Shown: positions 54,043 to 60,520 of the stretch, one piece after another | Layout of the letters: every line of letters begins with the position of its first letter | Numbering within the stretch: position 1 is the stretch's first letter | Origin: Bacteroidota bacterium | GTDB taxonomy: Bacteria > Bacteroidota > Bacteroidia > Chitinophagales > Saprospiraceae | Direction of reading: 5' to 3' | Assembly: GCA_030147525.1 (NCBI GenBank) | Contig: JASBVF010000001.1 | Location: 62,001 to 126,000 of the forward strand | Length of the DNA: 64,000 bases | Notes under the pieces: model-generated | Database searches by the model: none | What the model was told of the DNA's origin: nothing | The model's input: only the letters and a program-made list of their open reading frames with translations | Position numbers and translations under genes: made by a program

Positions 54043-55599
54043 CTACCCTGCCCATCCTTCCCGGTCGAGGCTGCGGTATTGAATGGCTTCGGCAATGTGT
54101 TCGATTTTGATGTCCGGGCTTCCGGCAAGATCTGCGCTTGTGCGGGCGACCTTCAGGATTCGGTCGTAGGCTCTGGCGGATAGTTTCTGCACTTCCATTG
54201 CTTTTTTCAACAGGGCAGTACCCGCCGTATTCAGTTGGCATACTTCCCGCACCAACCGGCTTGGCATTTGTGCGTTGCAAAAAATTCCTTTGTAATTTTT
54301 GAAGCGTTCTTCCTGTATCTCTCTCGATTTCACAACTGCCTCGGCGATTTCCTTGCTGGTTTTCGAGGTAACTTCGTACTTCGAAAGTTCTTCGTAGGAA
54401 ACCGGCGTCACTTCCACATGCAAGTCAATCCGGTCCAGCAGCGGTCCTGAGATTTTACTCAAATAACGCTTCACCACGCCAGGGCCGCAAACACACTCCT
54501 TCGACGGGTGATTGTAATATCCGCAAGGGCAGGGATTCATCGAGGCAACGAGCATAAAATTGGCGGGATAGTCAATCGTCACTTTTGCCCGTGAAATCGT
54601 TACCCTCCGCTCTTCCATCGGTTGACGCATCACTTCCAGCACAGAACGCTTAAACTCCGGCAATTCATCCAAAAATAAAACACCGTTGTGAGCCAGGGAA
54701 ATTTCTCCCGGCATAGGGTTTGAGCCTCCGCCTACCAATGCCACATCGCTGATGGTGTGATGAGGCGAACGAAACGGACGATTGGAAATCAGGGAAGCTT
54801 CAGCTGGTAAAATACCGGAAACGGAGTGGATTTTTGTCGTTTCCAGTGCCTCAAAAAGTGAAAGTTGTGGAAGTATGGTCGGCATTCTCCTTGCCAGCAT
54901 CGTCTTACCAGCTCCCGGCGGACCTATTAATATAGCATTGTGTCCACCCGCCGCTGCAATTTCGAGCGCTCGTTTTACATTTTCCTGGCCTTTCACATCA
55001 GAAAAATCGACGGTGAAAATCTCACGGTTTTCAGCAAATTCCGCCCTGGTATCCACCACAGTGGGGTCCAGCTGTATCCGGCCATTAAGAAAATCAACAG
55101 CTTCCAGGAGGTTATTTACACCATATACTTCCAGGTTGTTGACGATGGCCGCTTCCCTGGCATTTTGTTTTGGTAAAATAATGCCCTTAAACTTTTCCGC
55201 CCTGGCCTGAATGGCGATGGGCAAGGCACCCTTGATGGGCCGCAGGCTGCCGTCGAGCGACAACTCCCCCATCATGATATACTTGTCGAGATCCTTGTTG
55301 GTAATCTGTTCGGTGGCGGCAAGAATGCCCACGGCAATAGGCAAGTCGTAGGCAGATCCTTCTTTTCGGATGTCGGCCGGCGCCAGATTGACGACCATTT
55401 TCATCCGCATCATCTGGTATTGGCTGGTTTTAATGGCGGATTCGATTCTTTGAAATCCTTCCTTTACTGCGATATCCGGAAGCCCTACCAAAAAATAGAA
55501 CGGACCGTTTCCACTGGGTTGTCCTCCTGCATTTACTTCAACGGTAATGGTTTGAGCGTCGACGCCATGAACGGCTGAGGCATAGGTTTTTACGAGCAT
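54043..55599 (-). CDS. yifB: YifB/ComM family AAA ATPase
   Basis: A 518-residue Mg-chelatase-like helicase; in Vibrio, ComM drives branch migration during natural transformation. The N-terminal Lon-like (ChlI) domain covers about 1-180 (VGLPDIAVKEGFQRIESAI). The AAA core has Walker A LIGPPGAGKTMLARRMP near residue 222 and Walker B GVLFLDELPEF near 305. A cysteine-rich insertion (NPCPCGYYNHPSKECVCGPG) is a predicted zinc-binding loop near 355. The C-terminal helical domain ends REGWAG. With dprA also in the window, transformability is plausible. Confidence 0.94.
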   Translation of the reverse strand: MLVKTYASAVHGVDAQTITVEVNAGGQPSGNGPFYFLVGLPDIAVKEGFQRIESAIKTSQYQMMRMKMVVNLAPADIRKEGSAYDLPIAVGILAATEQITNKDLDKYIMMGELSLDGSLRPIKGALPIAIQARAEKFKGIILPKQNAREAAIVNNLEVYGVNNLLEAVDFLNGRIQLDPTVVDTRAEFAENREIFTVDFSDVKGQENVKRALEIAAAGGHNAILIGPPGAGKTMLARRMPTILPQLSLFEALETTKIHSVSGILPAEASLISNRPFRSPHHTISDVALVGGGSNPMPGEISLAHNGVLFLDELPEFKRSVLEVMRQPMEERRVTISRAKVTIDYPANFMLVASMNPCPCGYYNHPSKECVCGPGVVKRYLSKISGPLLDRIDLHVEVTPVSYEELSKYEVTSKTSKEIAEAVVKSREIQEERFKNYKGIFCNAQMPSRLVREVCQLNTAGTALLKKAMEVQKLSARAYDRILKVARTSADLAGSPDIKIEHIAEAIQYRSLDREGWAG

Positions 55600-55708
55600 T
55601 GAGTCTTCTCATTTATGTTTTTAGGAAGTTTTTTAGCGGGCCTAAATTATCGCAATTTTTCATTTTGGTGAAAAACATTTGAAAGATCGATTCCGCATTT
55701 CTGACTCT

Positions 55709-56386
55709 TTAGAAAAGTGTAGGCGGTTCAGGGATTTCGAAATGCAGTTCCGGGGAGTTATTCACCACGGAATTTACCAGCTCCGACACACGGTACATTT
55801 TTATGGGACAGCCTGGCGGCGTCTGCATCAGGTTGGCTATTTCATCCAAATCGTCGGTCTCCAGCCAGCGTTTTTGCGATTCGGGATCGGTAAGTATCAC
55901 AGGCATTCTGTTGTGAATGAATGAAACATCTTCGTTTGCGTCAGTGGTGATGATGGAAAAAGTTTTCAAGCCGTAGTCTCCGCTATACCAGATATCCCAG
56001 ATACCTGCAAACAACATCAACTCACCATTTTCCAGAAAAATACGATAGGGAATTTTCCTGACGCCTTCTCTGCGCCATTCATAAAAACTATCGGCGGGGA
56101 TCAGGCAGCGCCGCTTGCGGATAGGAATGCGGAAAGATGGTTTTGTTTCGATGCCCTCCCGACGGGCGTTGATGAGACGTCCGGTATTTTTACCGTCATT
56201 TGACCAGTGTGGAACAAGCCCCCAGGTCAGGTATTGCAGTCGCTCCGGTTGATCGTCCGTTACCACATAAGCATGTTGGGTAGGTGCAATATTGTAACTG
56301 ACACGTAAAGTTTCGGTAGTTTCCACAAAAGGCAGCTGCTGTTGCAATTTTTCTTTGGATGTGGCCAGTGAAAAACGTCCGCACAT
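55709..56386 (-). CDS. SOS response-associated peptidase (SRAP, YedK/HMCES family)
   Basis: A 225-residue protein that crosslinks covalently to abasic sites in single-stranded DNA. The catalytic Cys2 is exposed after Met removal (MCGRFSLATSKEK). The conserved asparagine/arginine region GLVPHWSNDGKN, the glutamate in DSFYEWRREG near residue 103 and the histidine in VSFIHNRMPVIL near 165 complete the active site. Length is typical. Placed beside yifB, also a DNA-handling gene. Confidence 0.94.
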   Translation of the reverse strand: MCGRFSLATSKEKLQQQLPFVETTETLRVSYNIAPTQHAYVVTDDQPERLQYLTWGLVPHWSNDGKNTGRLINARREGIETKPSFRIPIRKRRCLIPADSFYEWRREGVRKIPYRIFLENGELMLFAGIWDIWYSGDYGLKTFSIITTDANEDVSFIHNRMPVILTDPESQKRWLETDDLDEIANLMQTPPGCPIKMYRVSELVNSVVNNSPELHFEIPEPPTLF

Positions 56387-57135
56387 GTTTAAGCTGGTAG
56401 TTTATTTAGTAAAACGGGATGTTTGTAATGTTGTAAAATATTTCACCGCCTTTCCTGTCCACCAACACTATTCCACAACAAAGAACAGGTCCTCCACAAC
56501 AGATATTTGGAAGCAAAAACAAATCGTTTGGAGGGGTTCAATCCTGTTTTAAACACCTCTAAAAAATAATTTTCATAAAGGTATAAAAATCAGAGGGTTG
56601 GCAAAACGCTCTTTCAACAGAATATGTGGGAAAAGATGTGAAGAGTGAGCTATGTTATGAACAGTTATTAAGATCGAGCGTTTACCTCGCAATTTTTCAG
56701 GTACACATCAAAGTAATATTGTGTGAAACCATCGATGGTTATTGACATTTACACAGCTCTTGTTAGTGTGTTAAAATCAAAAATTTTTCATCATCCAGTC
56801 TTCTCCACAAGCTGTGAATAAGTTTACAAGTACTTGATATTGAATTTACATAGCTGTTAGTCGCGTGTGAATAACCTGTACCTAAAACAGGAGTTATTAA
56901 ATCCGAAATTCTCCGTTCTTTTTTTCTCAACGTACTAACACCCTTAATAATAAGGGGCTTAAATTTTTTTAAAAAATAAAATCATTAAAACTATTAGAAC
57001 TGACTTTCCCGTGAATCTCCGTCAAACAAAACAATTTAGTTTTGCTTCGGTCTTTCAAGCTTCGTTTCAGGGGGTTTATGATTTTCAGAAATGCCTCAGT
57101 TCAAGGTTTGATTGTGCACGATTACAGTTTAAAAT
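56387..57135. other. AT-rich intergenic region, left part of a candidate oriC
   Basis: A 749-base gap with no credible gene. DnaA-box-like motifs (TTWTNCACA or one to two changes) are TATTCCACA (56469), TCCTCCACA (56490), TGTGGGAAA (56625), TTCTCCACA (56801), TGTGAATAA (56813) and TGTGAATAA (56866). Both TGTGAATAA copies fit TTWTNCACA exactly on the other strand. A CCCTTA-ATAA-TAAGGG hairpin (56941-56956) precedes a very AT-rich run. A -7 box of ctaA lies at 57037. Confidence 0.55.
57037..57044 (+). promoter_or_regulatory. Putative -7 box of ctaA
   Basis: TAGTTTTG matches TAnnTTTG, about 92 bases before the ctaA start. The -33 box is not clear. Confidence 0.35.
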
Positions 57136-58218
57136 ATGAGTACTTTACAAAAAAACATAGCTAAACCGGTCCGGCTTTGGTTGCTGGCCGGCGTCGTCAT
57201 GGTATTCTTTCAGGTTGTCATTGGCGGCGTAACCCGTTTGACGGATTCCGGCCTTTCGATTACTGAATGGGCCGTGATTCAAGGTACACTGCCGCCGCTT
57301 AACGAAGCGGAATGGTTAGAAGCATTTGAGAAATATCAAGTTGCAGCAAAAAAGCAATTCGAAACGCTGCATGCGGATATGGCACTCAGCGAATTCAAAG
57401 TGATTTTTTTCTGGGAGTATGCACACCGGCTTTGGGCCAGGCTGATGGGTTTTGTTTTTCTCTTTCCTTTTCTTTGGTTTTTGTGGAAAAAACAATTGCC
57501 CGGATGGCTGCTCAGGCGGTTGGGTATAGTCATAGTACTGGCGGCATTAGCGGCAGTGTTTGGCTGGATCATGGTGGCAAGTGGATTGAATAATGATAGC
57601 CGCACCTGGGTGAGTGCCTACAAACTCATTATTCACCTGGGCATAGCCACGACTCTGTTCGGATATCTTTTCTGGACCTGGCTGCGGGCTGACCAGCCAG
57701 AAACCGCTGACAGTGGCCTGGGAGGGCTTAGGCGGTTCGGTTGGGTTGTAGCCTTGGTATTGTTTGTTCAGATTATATTCGGCGGGCTGATGGCGGGAAT
57801 GAGGGCAGGACTGATTCATCCTTATTTTCCGGTTTTTGTAGAGGGAAACCGTTTTTGGGAGGCGCTCAGTGCTCCTACGACTGCAGGAATCGACCAAATC
57901 GTGGATTATGAGCCGTATCTATTTGTCAAAGCTGTCGTACAAATATTACATCGCAGTACTGCATGGATTCTAAGCGGCTTGATTATTTTCTTTTTTCTGA
58001 AAATGAAAAAACACACAATTTCAAGCCGTCTGAAATTAGGAGGGAATTTATTGGTTTTCATGCTCTTAGTGCAGTTTTTATTGGGCGTTTTCACAGTTAT
58101 CAACAGTATTGGACGAATTCCACTGCTATGGGGAGTGGTGCATCAGGCTGGGGCTTTATTACTTTTAGCAGTAGTTTTATTTGTAAATTATCAGTTTACA
58201 CAGCGAAAAACAGCTTGA
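57136..58218 (+). CDS. ctaA: Heme A synthase (CtaA/COX15 family)
   Basis: A 360-residue inner-membrane haem enzyme with eight predicted helices in two halves. Conserved features: the GGVTRLTDSGLSITEW block near residue 30, histidine in FWEYAHRLWARLMG near 97, a histidine in LIIHLGIATTLFG near 170, FGGLMAGMRAGL near 215, and late histidines in ILHRSTAW and WGVVHQAGALLLL. It converts haem O to haem A for cytochrome aa3 oxidase. No other cytochrome oxidase genes are in the window. It sits between two DnaA-box-rich gaps. Confidence 0.95.
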   Translation: MSTLQKNIAKPVRLWLLAGVVMVFFQVVIGGVTRLTDSGLSITEWAVIQGTLPPLNEAEWLEAFEKYQVAAKKQFETLHADMALSEFKVIFFWEYAHRLWARLMGFVFLFPFLWFLWKKQLPGWLLRRLGIVIVLAALAAVFGWIMVASGLNNDSRTWVSAYKLIIHLGIATTLFGYLFWTWLRADQPETADSGLGGLRRFGWVVALVLFVQIIFGGLMAGMRAGLIHPYFPVFVEGNRFWEALSAPTTAGIDQIVDYEPYLFVKAVVQILHRSTAWILSGLIIFFFLKMKKHTISSRLKLGGNLLVFMLLVQFLLGVFTVINSIGRIPLLWGVVHQAGALLLLAVVLFVNYQFTQRKTA

Positions 58219-58500
58219 TGTGGAAAAATATGTGGATTTTAATTTCAAATTTGAAAAGGTTATAAAATCCTTAATTAACTACTTGTAAATCAAGTGGTTA
58301 ATTAATCACCTTAAATCTAACCCTGTTTTATGAAAATGTGGATAAAGTGTGGAATAACGACTATTTCCCAATTATTTTTGCCGCATCTGACAATTGAGTT
58401 ATTGTTGATTTGATAAGACAGGATATTTTCACTAATTTATAGATTTAGATAATGTTGATTTTTGGAAATTAACAAATGTGGAAAAGTTTGTGGAAAACTA
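58219..58500. other. oriC: DnaA-box cluster, right part of a candidate oriC
   Basis: Six same-direction DnaA-box-like 9-mers within about 280 bases: TGTGGAAAA (58219), TGTGGATTT (58231), TGTGGATAA (58337, exact E. coli consensus), TGTGGAATA (58348), TGTGGAAAA (58477) and TGTGGAAAA (58489). TGTGGAAAA fits TTWTNCACA. The region is very AT-rich and contains a 15-bp near-perfect inverted repeat. The density and shared orientation are hard to explain as chance in a 50% GC genome. The rest of the gap to 58660 holds only the next gene's promoter. Confidence 0.65.
58271..58305. repeat. AT-rich inverted repeat inside the DnaA-box cluster
   Basis: TTAATTAACTACTTG (58271-58285) and CAAGTGGTTAATTAA (58291-58305) pair with one mismatch around the loop TAAAT. 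Not followed by a T run, so not a clear terminator of ctaA; it could be part of an unwinding element (inference). Confidence 0.7.
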
Positions 58501-58600
58501 ATTTAGAGTAAATGAAACATTGAGTATGTTGCGTCAGGTGTTTAGAAACGATACGCAGAACATTCATGACAAATTTCACTTTTATAGTTAATCATTGGAA

Positions 58601-58631
58601 TTGTTGTGCTGAACTGAAAAGACTATTTTTG
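58601..58631 (+). promoter_or_regulatory. Putative promoter of the alpha/beta hydrolase gene
   Basis: TTG at 58601-58603, a 20-base spacer and TATTTTTG at 58624-58631, a full -7 match, ends 29 bases before the ATG at 58661. Confidence 0.6.
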
Positions 58632-58660
58632 CCCAATCAATTATTACAATCAGGTACTAA

Positions 58661-59431
58661 ATGGATTATCCAGTCATTGAAGAAGGTGGGTTTAAATACA
58701 TAGAAACGAAAGGCGGAGAGCAAAACCTCTTATTGCTTCACGGTCTGTTTGGAGCGCTGAGCAATTTCAATGGTATTCTCCATCATTTCGGGACCTCGTA
58801 TAACGTGGTCGTTCCTATTCTCCCGATTTTTGAAATGCCGCTTCGCAAACTTTCCGTCTCCGGCCTAGTCGATCACGTGGCAAAATTTGTTGAAAAAAAA
58901 GGCTACAAAAACGTCCACGTACTCGGCAATTCGCTGGGCGGGCACATATCGTTGCTCTACGCCCTCGCCCATCCTAAAAAGATTGCATCTATCACGCTGA
59001 CCGGCAGCTCCGGGCTTTTTGAAAGCGCCATGGGCAGCACTTTTCCCAAGCGTGGCGATTATGATTTTATCAAAAAGAAAACGGAAGCTACGTTTTACAA
59101 TCCCGAAGTCGCTACCAAAGAACTGGTGGACGAAGTATTCGACACCGTCAATGACCGGAACAAAGCCATCCGGGTGATCGCCACTGCCAAATCGGCCATC
59201 CGCCACAACCTGCGGGATAAACTGAATCAAATCAAAGCGCCCGCTCTACTGATCTGGGGGAAAGAAGACAATGTCACGCCTGCTTTCGTCGGTGAGGAAT
59301 TTCATAAACTTATGCCCAACTCCCGGCTCCACATGCTTGAAGAATGTGGCCATGCGCCGATGATGGAACATCCGAAGATTTTCAACCAACATCTGGAAGA
59401 GTTCTTGACGGAAGTGACCGTCGCCGCCTGA
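58661..59431 (+). CDS. Alpha/beta hydrolase
   Basis: A 256-residue cytoplasmic hydrolase of the BioH/MhpC-like group. The oxyanion-hole HGLFGALSNF is near residue 27, the nucleophile elbow GNSLGGHIS near 90, the aspartate in WGKEDNVTP near 205 and the histidine in EECGHAPMMEHP near 233. The triad is complete; the ester or other substrate is unknown. Followed at 4 bases by the convergent MoxR gene. Confidence 0.9.
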   Translation: MDYPVIEEGGFKYIETKGGEQNLLLLHGLFGALSNFNGILHHFGTSYNVVVPILPIFEMPLRKLSVSGLVDHVAKFVEKKGYKNVHVLGNSLGGHISLLYALAHPKKIASITLTGSSGLFESAMGSTFPKRGDYDFIKKKTEATFYNPEVATKELVDEVFDTVNDRNKAIRVIATAKSAIRHNLRDKLNQIKAPALLIWGKEDNVTPAFVGEEFHKLMPNSRLHMLEECGHAPMMEHPKIFNQHLEEFLTEVTVAA

Positions 59432-59434
59432 TTT

Positions 59435-60520
59435 TCAAATCAAATCCTTGCAGGCCCGGTACACATCGCCCCAGTCTTTCCGCTCTTTCACGACTGTTTC
59501 CAGGTATTCCAGCCAGATATTTTTATCCTGAACCGGATCTTTTACGATCGCACCTGTGATACCGGCTGCCAGGTCGTGTGCTTTCAACACGCCGTCGCCA
59601 AAGTGAACAGCCAGCGCCTGCCCGCTGTGCACCACTGAAATTGCTTCGGCGGTGCTGAGGGTGCTGCTGGGCATTTTGAGTTTCGTGCGGCCGTCTTCCG
59701 TTTTTCCGCTTCGCAATTCCCTGAAAATAGTCACCAGCCGCTGGATTTCCTTCACCGGTGCCGATGCTGCAGGCAGTTCTAGCGACTGCCCGATTTTTTC
59801 CACACGGGTTTTCACAATATTGACTTCCTCCTCCAAAGAATTTGGCAGCGGCATAACCACCGTGTTGAAACGGCGGCGCAGGGCGCTCGACAGTTCGTTG
59901 ATACCCCGATCCCGGTCGTTGGCGGTAGCGATCACGTTGAAACCCCGCTGCGCCTGCACTTCCGAACCCAACTCCGGAATCGGCAGCGTTTTTTCCGATA
60001 AAACAGTGATCAATGTATCCTGCACGTCGCTGGGAATGCGGGTGAGTTCTTCCACTCTTGCGATTTTGCCGTCCCGCATGGCATTCATTACGGGGCTGGA
60101 TACGAGTGCTTTTTCTGACGGACCTTCGGCCAACAGGCGGGCATAATTCCAGCCGTAGCGGAGGGCTTCTTCGTTCATGCCTGCGGTGCCTTGCACAAGT
60201 AGCGTCGAGTCGCCGGAAATAGCAGCAGCGAGATGCTCCGACACCCAGGTTTTCGCCGTGCCGGGAATGCCGATGAGCAGCAACGCCCGGTCAGTAGCCA
60301 GCGTCGCCACGGCGATTTCGATGAGGCGGCGGTTGCCAAAATATTTGGGTTCGATTTCCGTACCGTCGTCCAGTTTTCCGCCGAGCAGGTAACTGACGAC
60401 TGCCCAGGGGGAGAGCTTCCAGTTCGACGGGCGGGGCTTGTTGTCCAGTTTGGTCAGCGCCTCAAGTTCTGTGGCGTAGATTTGTTCGGCGTGGGGGCGT
60501 AGGATTTGGAGGTTTGACAT
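59435..60520 (-). CDS. MoxR-type AAA ATPase
   Basis: A 361-residue AAA+ protein. Walker A is LIGIPGTAKTWVSEHL near residue 85. Walker B is degenerate in the usual place: IARVEELTR carries the acidic pair. Sensor 1 is in VIATANDRDRGINELSSALRRRF, close to MoxR's canonical ATxNP region and with the arginine finger. MoxR proteins usually work with a VWA-domain partner to assemble or activate complexes; none is adjacent here, and the neighbours (hemW, a hydrolase) give no clear client. Similar bacterial ATPases occur beside SWIM and VWA genes, which must be sought elsewhere. Confidence 0.85.
   Translation of the reverse strand: MSNLQILRPHAEQIYATELEALTKLDNKPRPSNWKLSPWAVVSYLLGGKLDDGTEIEPKYFGNRRLIEIAVATLATDRALLLIGIPGTAKTWVSEHLAAAISGDSTLLVQGTAGMNEEALRYGWNYARLLAEGPSEKALVSSPVMNAMRDGKIARVEELTRIPSDVQDTLITVLSEKTLPIPELGSEVQAQRGFNVIATANDRDRGINELSSALRRRFNTVVMPLPNSLEEEVNIVKTRVEKIGQSLELPAASAPVKEIQRLVTIFRELRSGKTEDGRTKLKMPSSTLSTAEAISVVHSGQALAVHFGDGVLKAHDLAAGITGAIVKDPVQDKNIWLEYLETVVKERKDWGDVYRACKDLI

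Follow-up and report, generated by a model that had tools for sequence, protein, structure and literature searches.

A putative chromosomal replication origin, possibly bipartite, around ctaA in a Saprospiraceae-like genome

Where does chromosome replication start in a genome of the Saprospiraceae, a large and mostly uncultured family that is common in activated sludge and in the sea? The position of the origin in this family matters for growth-rate estimates based on read depth, for genome finishing and for the design of oriC plasmids (for example, for cultured members such as Saprospira). The question is raised here by a heme A synthase gene (ctaA) and the two AT-rich gaps that flank it, in a stretch of 64,000 nucleotides that was analysed as a whole (the ‘window’). 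The window is part of the 266.6-kb contig 55 (C55) of a Saprospiraceae-like genome (G000) of 7.08 Mb in 59 contigs, and the relatives named by a search with CtaA are mostly Saprospiraceae assemblies. The dnaA gene of this genome is on contig 19 rather than on the contig that carries ctaA, in keeping with the sequence-only reading of the window, for which no dnaA needed to be nearby. Such a separation is expected for Bacteroidota, where, in the Ori-Finder/DoriC predictions described in the relevant part of PMC4755523, oriC is found away from dnaA, as on the large chromosome of Prevotella intermedia. The locus offers a testable case of an origin that has persisted while unlinked from dnaA.

The answer proposed here is that the locus around ctaA is very probably the chromosomal replication origin (oriC), most likely with a core that resembles the basal unwinding system (BUS) and possibly bipartite around ctaA. 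Its backing consists of a clustering of DnaA boxes, a switch in GC skew, a gene order common with relatives and a conserved element that is unique in the genome; the origin assignment originally made from the sequence alone is supported by the first, second and last of these.

The locus has three pieces: a left gap of 749 bp (56387-57135, 66% AT), ctaA itself (57136-58218, plus strand; COX15-CtaA, Pfam PF02628, E 1.1e-76) and a right gap of 442 bp (58219-58660, 72% AT). An SRAP-family gene on the minus strand (55709-56386; PF02586) is the left neighbour, and an alpha/beta hydrolase gene on the plus strand (58661-59431; PF00561) lies to the right. The SRAP gene is also the left neighbour of ctaA in S. 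grandis, in the family member G041, in G260 and at locus L103 (all by Pfam), and in seven of eight loci viewed (judged by the beginnings of open reading frames), with a Crp-like regulator in its place in the eighth (L097). An Rfam search of 55500-59500 gave no match up to E 1, so that no known RNA element lies there. The DnaA protein of this genome contains, in its end region, the letters GGRDHSTV, which are typical of a box-binding DnaA. A plasmid region was considered and rejected: the CtaA matches in a plasmid collection comprise 12 records (from Paracoccus, Sinorhizobium, Sphingomonas, Shinella and Falsirhodobacter), all below 60% identity, and thus give no sign that the locus is plasmid-borne.

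Box clusters, unstable DNA and the skew switch

Both gaps contain DnaA-box-like words, as the sequence-only reading described them. In the right gap, six TGTGG-type 9-mers lie on the plus strand within 279 bases (starting at 58219, 58231, 58337, 58348, 58477 and 58489): one exact box, TGTGGATAA (58337-58345), three copies of TGTGGAAAA and two words with two mismatches. The first TGTGGAAAA occupies 58219-58227, and the other two form a tandem pair, TGTGGAAAA-N3-TGTGGAAAA, at 58477-58497. The AT-rich 15-bp inverted repeat that had been noticed amid this cluster is real (58271-58285 and 58291-58305, with 14 of 15 positions paired and a 5-nt loop); it is not evident by eye in aligned relatives. 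The left gap has three boxes within one mismatch of TGTGGATAA, namely TGTGGAGAA on the minus strand (also given as TTCTCCACA; 56801-56809) and, on the plus strand, the two copies of TGTGAATAA (56813-56821 and 56866-56874) that had been reported together with near-matches, of which five more, with two mismatches, were found.

This clustering goes beyond chance expectation. Sites within one mismatch of TGTGGATAA number 26 in the window, compared with 11.65 +/- 3.77 in 100 shuffles, none of which reaches 26, and the densest 300-, 500-, 1000- and 2200-bp stretches of the 64 kb for such boxes all fall here; for boxes with up to two mismatches, the densest 1000-bp stretch starts at 55901, partly to the left of the locus. 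On the whole contig, 9 of 34 boxes (five types) lie within 2.3 kb at the locus, where 0.29 would be expected, and the next-best 2.3-kb window has two. The claim that the locus would rank first in box density therefore stands for the 64 kb (at one mismatch) and for the contig, but fails for the genome, in which a cluster on contig 25 is denser. The DNA beside the boxes is AT-rich and unstable: the least stable 300-bp window of the whole contig starts at 58227, inside the right gap, and the 50-bp window from 56944, in the left gap, ranks fourth in instability among the contig's non-overlapping windows of that length (99.991 percentile). As in a bipartite origin, there are two box clusters with a gene, here ctaA, between them.

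The cumulative GC skew of the contig has the form of a V, with its minimum at C55:117542 (window position 55542), 0.85 kb to the left of the locus and about 1.5 kb to the left of the 57-58.5 kb at which a minimum had been predicted; the prediction thus holds on the contig, and it does so more sharply in G041 and S. grandis. None of 10000 block permutations gave a V as deep. A two-mean change-point analysis gave C55:117 kb (90% interval 106-131 kb, about +/-12 kb), a range that runs from 44 kb in the window to 5 kb past its right end, so that the skew puts the switch around the locus and does not resolve single genes. Skew at 4-fold sites, corrected for gene direction, prefers 95 kb (27.6) to 120 kb (19.0) on this contig, and the plus-strand share of coding bases is 42% to the left and 51.5% to the right of the locus (from crude ORF calls); the leading-strand gene bias, and the change of gene direction at the locus, are weak.

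A negative-to-positive skew switch is found in three genomes: in the contig itself, in G041 and in S. grandis. In G041, a 160-kb stretch shows a deep V (-4380) whose lowest point is 377 bp upstream of the ctaA match, and direction-corrected 4-fold-site skew switches at the same place, to within the 1-kb grid. For the complete genome of S. grandis Lewin (G100), a half-circle origin model was fitted to 40 sampled stretches of 20 kb; the best model places the origin in the range 1.96-2.04 Mb (p 0.0015 from 2000 permutations), compared with 2.05 Mb for ctaA. In the 20 kb that surround ctaA, skew reaches its minimum at 2052643, between the end of ctaA (2051827) and the SRAP gene (from 2053237); in G041, too, the local minimum falls within the gap between these two genes. 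The dnaA gene of S. grandis Lewin, at position 617 of the record, scores -8251 as an origin and is near the opposite pole, and the start of the record is therefore closer to the terminus than to the inferred origin.

Other relatives give a poorer signal. In the contigs of four same-genus genomes, the skew is shallow, and its minimum is 121 kb (G004), 15 kb (G005), 49 kb (G007) or 26 kb (G008) away from ctaA; ctaA is not singled out in any of them by direction-corrected 4-fold-site skew, which in G008 steps in the opposite direction at this gene. When flanks of 10 kb were compared, skew rose across ctaA in 10 of 24 loci with at least 60% CtaA identity, in 6 of 14 with 45-59%, and in 9 of 10 below 45%, these being the only loci with enough flank on both sides among the 42, 24 and 14 of the respective classes. 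We read the poor signal in the same-genus contigs and in this test as weak skew in such genomes; it is partly unexplained.

A short conserved element in the left gap

The sequence-only reading gave most weight to the right cluster. The boxes there are present, but comparison identifies the left gap, with a short element within it, as the part that is shared with more distant relatives. This element (56924-57001) consists of a degenerate tandem pair of boxes 8 bp apart on the plus strand, TTCTCAACG (56924-56932) and GTACTAACA (56932-56940), a CCC spacer (56941-56943), a trinucleotide run and AT-rich DNA; the place equivalent to the box pair reads TTATCCACT / TTATCCACA in S. grandis. The run, TTA-ATA-ATA on the plus strand (56944-56952; 3'-AAT-TAT-TAT-5' on the opposite strand), resembles DnaA-trios under the rule of three 3'-NAN-5' units given in the pertinent section of PMC8287927. 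The stretch 56944-57001 is a candidate DNA unwinding element, as judged from its 50-bp instability and from the conserved block in which it lies.

Used as a DNA query, the left gap finds blocks of 65-83% identity in 10 of 13 same-genus genomes, the best of which (56921-57043) is 77-83% identical in four of them; in four more distant genomes the same query gives only short matches, located elsewhere. Family-wide, the recurring arrangement is two boxes spaced 8 bp apart, followed by three bases, CTAATRATRATR and an AT-rich stretch. Among loci below 60% identity, 14 of 38 score at least 13 of 16 on the core motif, and controls reach no more than 12; the match at L103, counted among the 14, is probably spurious, given its position. 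G041 has a score of 10, no better than that of its control, and has no match to the strict pattern described below, its gap holding only a diverged look-alike (by eye).

A strict form of the core, ACRWRYYMACANNNYTRATRATRR, matches the genome of the window only once, on the plus strand at 56930-56953 (G000:C55:118930-118953). Among 100 genomes (this one included) it matches once per genome in 34, while the reversed control gives two matches. In all 28 family genomes that have both the core and ctaA, the match is 117-646 bp upstream of the ctaA match and on its strand; two further family genomes have the core, but no ctaA was found in them, and four genomes of other families have it elsewhere than at ctaA. 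Conversely, of 54 family genomes in which ctaA is present, 26 lack a strict match near that gene. Across 395 genomes drawn from the phylum (6 from the family, 13 from elsewhere in the order and 376 from outside it, as rows counted by eye), there are three strict matches: the window's own, one beside ctaA in G260, of the same family, and one in G213, of the order. The strict core is thus absent from four of the six family genomes in that set and from all 376 outside the order. The pattern was written after viewing loci that overlap the 100 searched genomes, and its sensitivity is therefore not an independent result, unlike the finding that it occurs once per genome and not at all outside the order.

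Six strict matches were not seen beside ctaA: G056:C3:14195, G068:C2:36115, G069:C47:54291, G090:C5:31655, G099:C45:100083 and G213:C1:451426 (L269). They comprise the four genomes of other families, G213 (in which ctaA was not sought) and G056 (in which none was found), and they may mark relocated origins. The family genome G047 also has a core match (G047:C27:53123) and no ctaA found.

The element can be compared with a BUS, which is described in the pertinent part of PMC8287927 as a DnaA box or pair of boxes, a spacer and at least three 3'-NAN-5' trinucleotides. The limits adopted from the same text were at most two mismatches in one box and at most four in the second, with at least three trios within 16 bp. 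The core boxes of the window have three and four mismatches and lie outside the box limits, while its trios (AAT-TAT-TAT) conform to the trio rule. For relatives, 81 loci were listed, two of them without upstream DNA; of the remaining 79, the 50 with a core-like match were scored and 29 were dropped. Boxes and trios both fall within the limits in 23 of these 50 preselected loci (S. grandis included), and GAT is the first trio in 20. At least three trios are found in all 50, a count that is not independent, since these loci were picked by eye from the 79.

The left gap is also spanned by a 20-nt inverted repeat (85%), with arms at 56510-56529 and 57029-57048, both of which lie within blocks conserved among same-genus relatives. 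Its right arm overlaps TAGTTTTG (57037-57044), which resembles the -7 promoter element of Bacteroidota and is perhaps an element of the ctaA promoter.

One gap or two, and other readings of the boxes

Whether the right gap belongs to the origin is a separate matter. One version of the oriC reading, with which its probability overlaps, would confine the origin to the left gap and regard the boxes after ctaA as an accessory or regulatory set of this lineage that is unneeded for initiation. The core element and the long conserved blocks sit in the left gap, as do the skew minima of G041 and S. grandis; moreover, the kilobase or so upstream of ctaA in S. grandis contains 11 (Lewin) and 13 (DSM 2844) boxes, and only about 92 bp separate ctaA from the next open reading frame in Lewin. 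The downstream cluster is therefore not general, and S. grandis likewise argues against any general requirement for both subregions and looping. Against a confined origin stands the distribution of boxes in closer relatives. Where CtaA identity is 60% or more (42 loci), 69 exact TGTGGAWAA words are found in the 500 bp downstream of ctaA (3.45 per kb) and 24 in the 500 bp upstream (1.2 per kb), with reversed controls of 0.05 per kb on either side. The tandem pair TGTGGAWAA-N3-TGTGGAWAA has 44 matches in 33 of 100 genomes (the reversed pattern has none in the same 100, the window's own genome being counted in both); it is within 1.5 kb of ctaA and on its strand in 19 of the 33, and 18 of these 19 carry it 27-288 bp downstream of the ctaA match. 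Upstream boxes dominate in the 24 loci of 45-59% identity (2.17 per kb in the first and 2.58 per kb in the second 500-bp bin, compared with 1.58 downstream), and the 14 loci below 45% have few on either side (0.57 per kb upstream, 0.29 downstream). On balance, an origin confined to the left gap is a serious possibility, to which we give somewhat less than an even chance.

One relative, G035, has very many box words at its locus (G035:C349, L044:2800-4035), 29 of them within one mismatch in 4 kb; several recur about 212 bp apart downstream of ctaA, in what looks like a box-bearing tandem repeat adjoining the putative origin.

A different explanation is that the boxes are DnaA-responsive promoter or titration sites (nrd-, datA- or DARS-like) and that the origin is elsewhere in the interval of the skew switch, or beyond it. 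Clusters of the same 9-mer do exist elsewhere among the 174 exact TGTGGAWAA matches of this genome. The densest (among the 100 of these 174 matches that were listed, none past contig 46) is at C25:210110-210208 (L209:10110-10208), with five copies of TGTGGAAAA, direct and inverted, in 99 bp; it is flanked by a CorA gene and a ribonucleotide reductase gene and lies upstream of the latter (by Pfam; the B12-dependent type by eye only), and possibly reflects control of that gene by DnaA. A tandem pair, TGTGGAAAACTATGTGGAAAA, is found at C58:189468-189488 (L127:9468), in a gap adjoining a PorP/SprF gene; the 21-mer is identical, and off the ctaA contig, in eight same-genus genomes (this one included), with conserved flanks in the four aligned, and it may represent either a solitary (orphan) DnaA site or the beginning of a small open reading frame. 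The weak or misplaced skew of several relatives could likewise be taken to favour promoter or titration sites. However, skew is one-signed across both of these contigs, which makes either cluster unlikely as an origin, whereas the ctaA locus is at a switch, and switch and locus coincide in three genomes; we consider this explanation improbable. Chance, with box-like words arising from AT-rich gaps and the skew minimum an accident of local gene content, is scarcely credible, for although such gaps raise expected word counts and the window has 194 sites within two mismatches, reversed-word controls are near zero in the same gaps and the core element is conserved and unique.

Proposed mechanism and known origins

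For an origin at ctaA, the events at the locus (binding by DnaA, the site of opening and looping) are those that we infer from its sequence. DnaA, supplied from another contig, would bind boxes in both gaps that flank ctaA; a DnaA filament would grow from the box pair at 56924-56940 over the trinucleotide run at 56944-56952 and would open the AT-rich stretch from 56944 to about 57001, where the helicase would be loaded. A second subregion for DnaA binding could be provided by the boxes that follow ctaA (among them the pair at 58477-58497); it would assist through looping, with ctaA sitting in the loop much as dnaA is looped out in the origins of B. subtilis or H. pylori. For the Saprospiraceae more widely, it may tentatively be proposed, with rather more doubt than confidence, that the family has a bipartite origin specific to it, in which ctaA stands where B. 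subtilis has dnaA. Opening would occur at a BUS variant whose boxes overlap (8-bp spacing) and whose trio run reads GAT-TAC/TAT; among related families of the order, the core would have moved off ctaA. For part of the family, this short pattern may be usable to mark the origin.

Literature searches, in which mostly the top matches were considered, gave no paper that treats an origin in the Saprospiraceae or places ctaA at one; an in-silico entry in DoriC may exist. In our judgement, the origin is ordinary in kind, and its place and architecture are without report in the literature searched.

Among known systems, the origin of the Prevotella intermedia type, as presented in the corresponding part of PMC4755523, likewise has a DnaA-box cluster at a GC-skew switch with dnaA far away; the neighbours of the origin here, in contrast, are SRAP and ctaA. 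The bipartite origins of B. subtilis, H. pylori and C. difficile, in the account given in the relevant section of PMC7561715, have two box-bearing gaps flanking one gene, with a likely unwinding site in one of the gaps, as is seen here. The parts of such origins are usually separated by dnaA (same section), and a distal box can act via a loop (according to a passage of PMC6669920), whereas the gene between the gaps is ctaA in the present case and looping is only inferred. The orientation of the core, with trios on the CACA side, is the same as in the C. difficile example of that section of PMC7561715. As in a BUS, a box pair is followed by a short C-rich spacer, repeated NAN trinucleotides and then AT-rich DNA; unlike in a BUS, the core boxes overlap, at a spacing of 8 bp, and the distal trios are mostly TAC/TAT rather than GAT.
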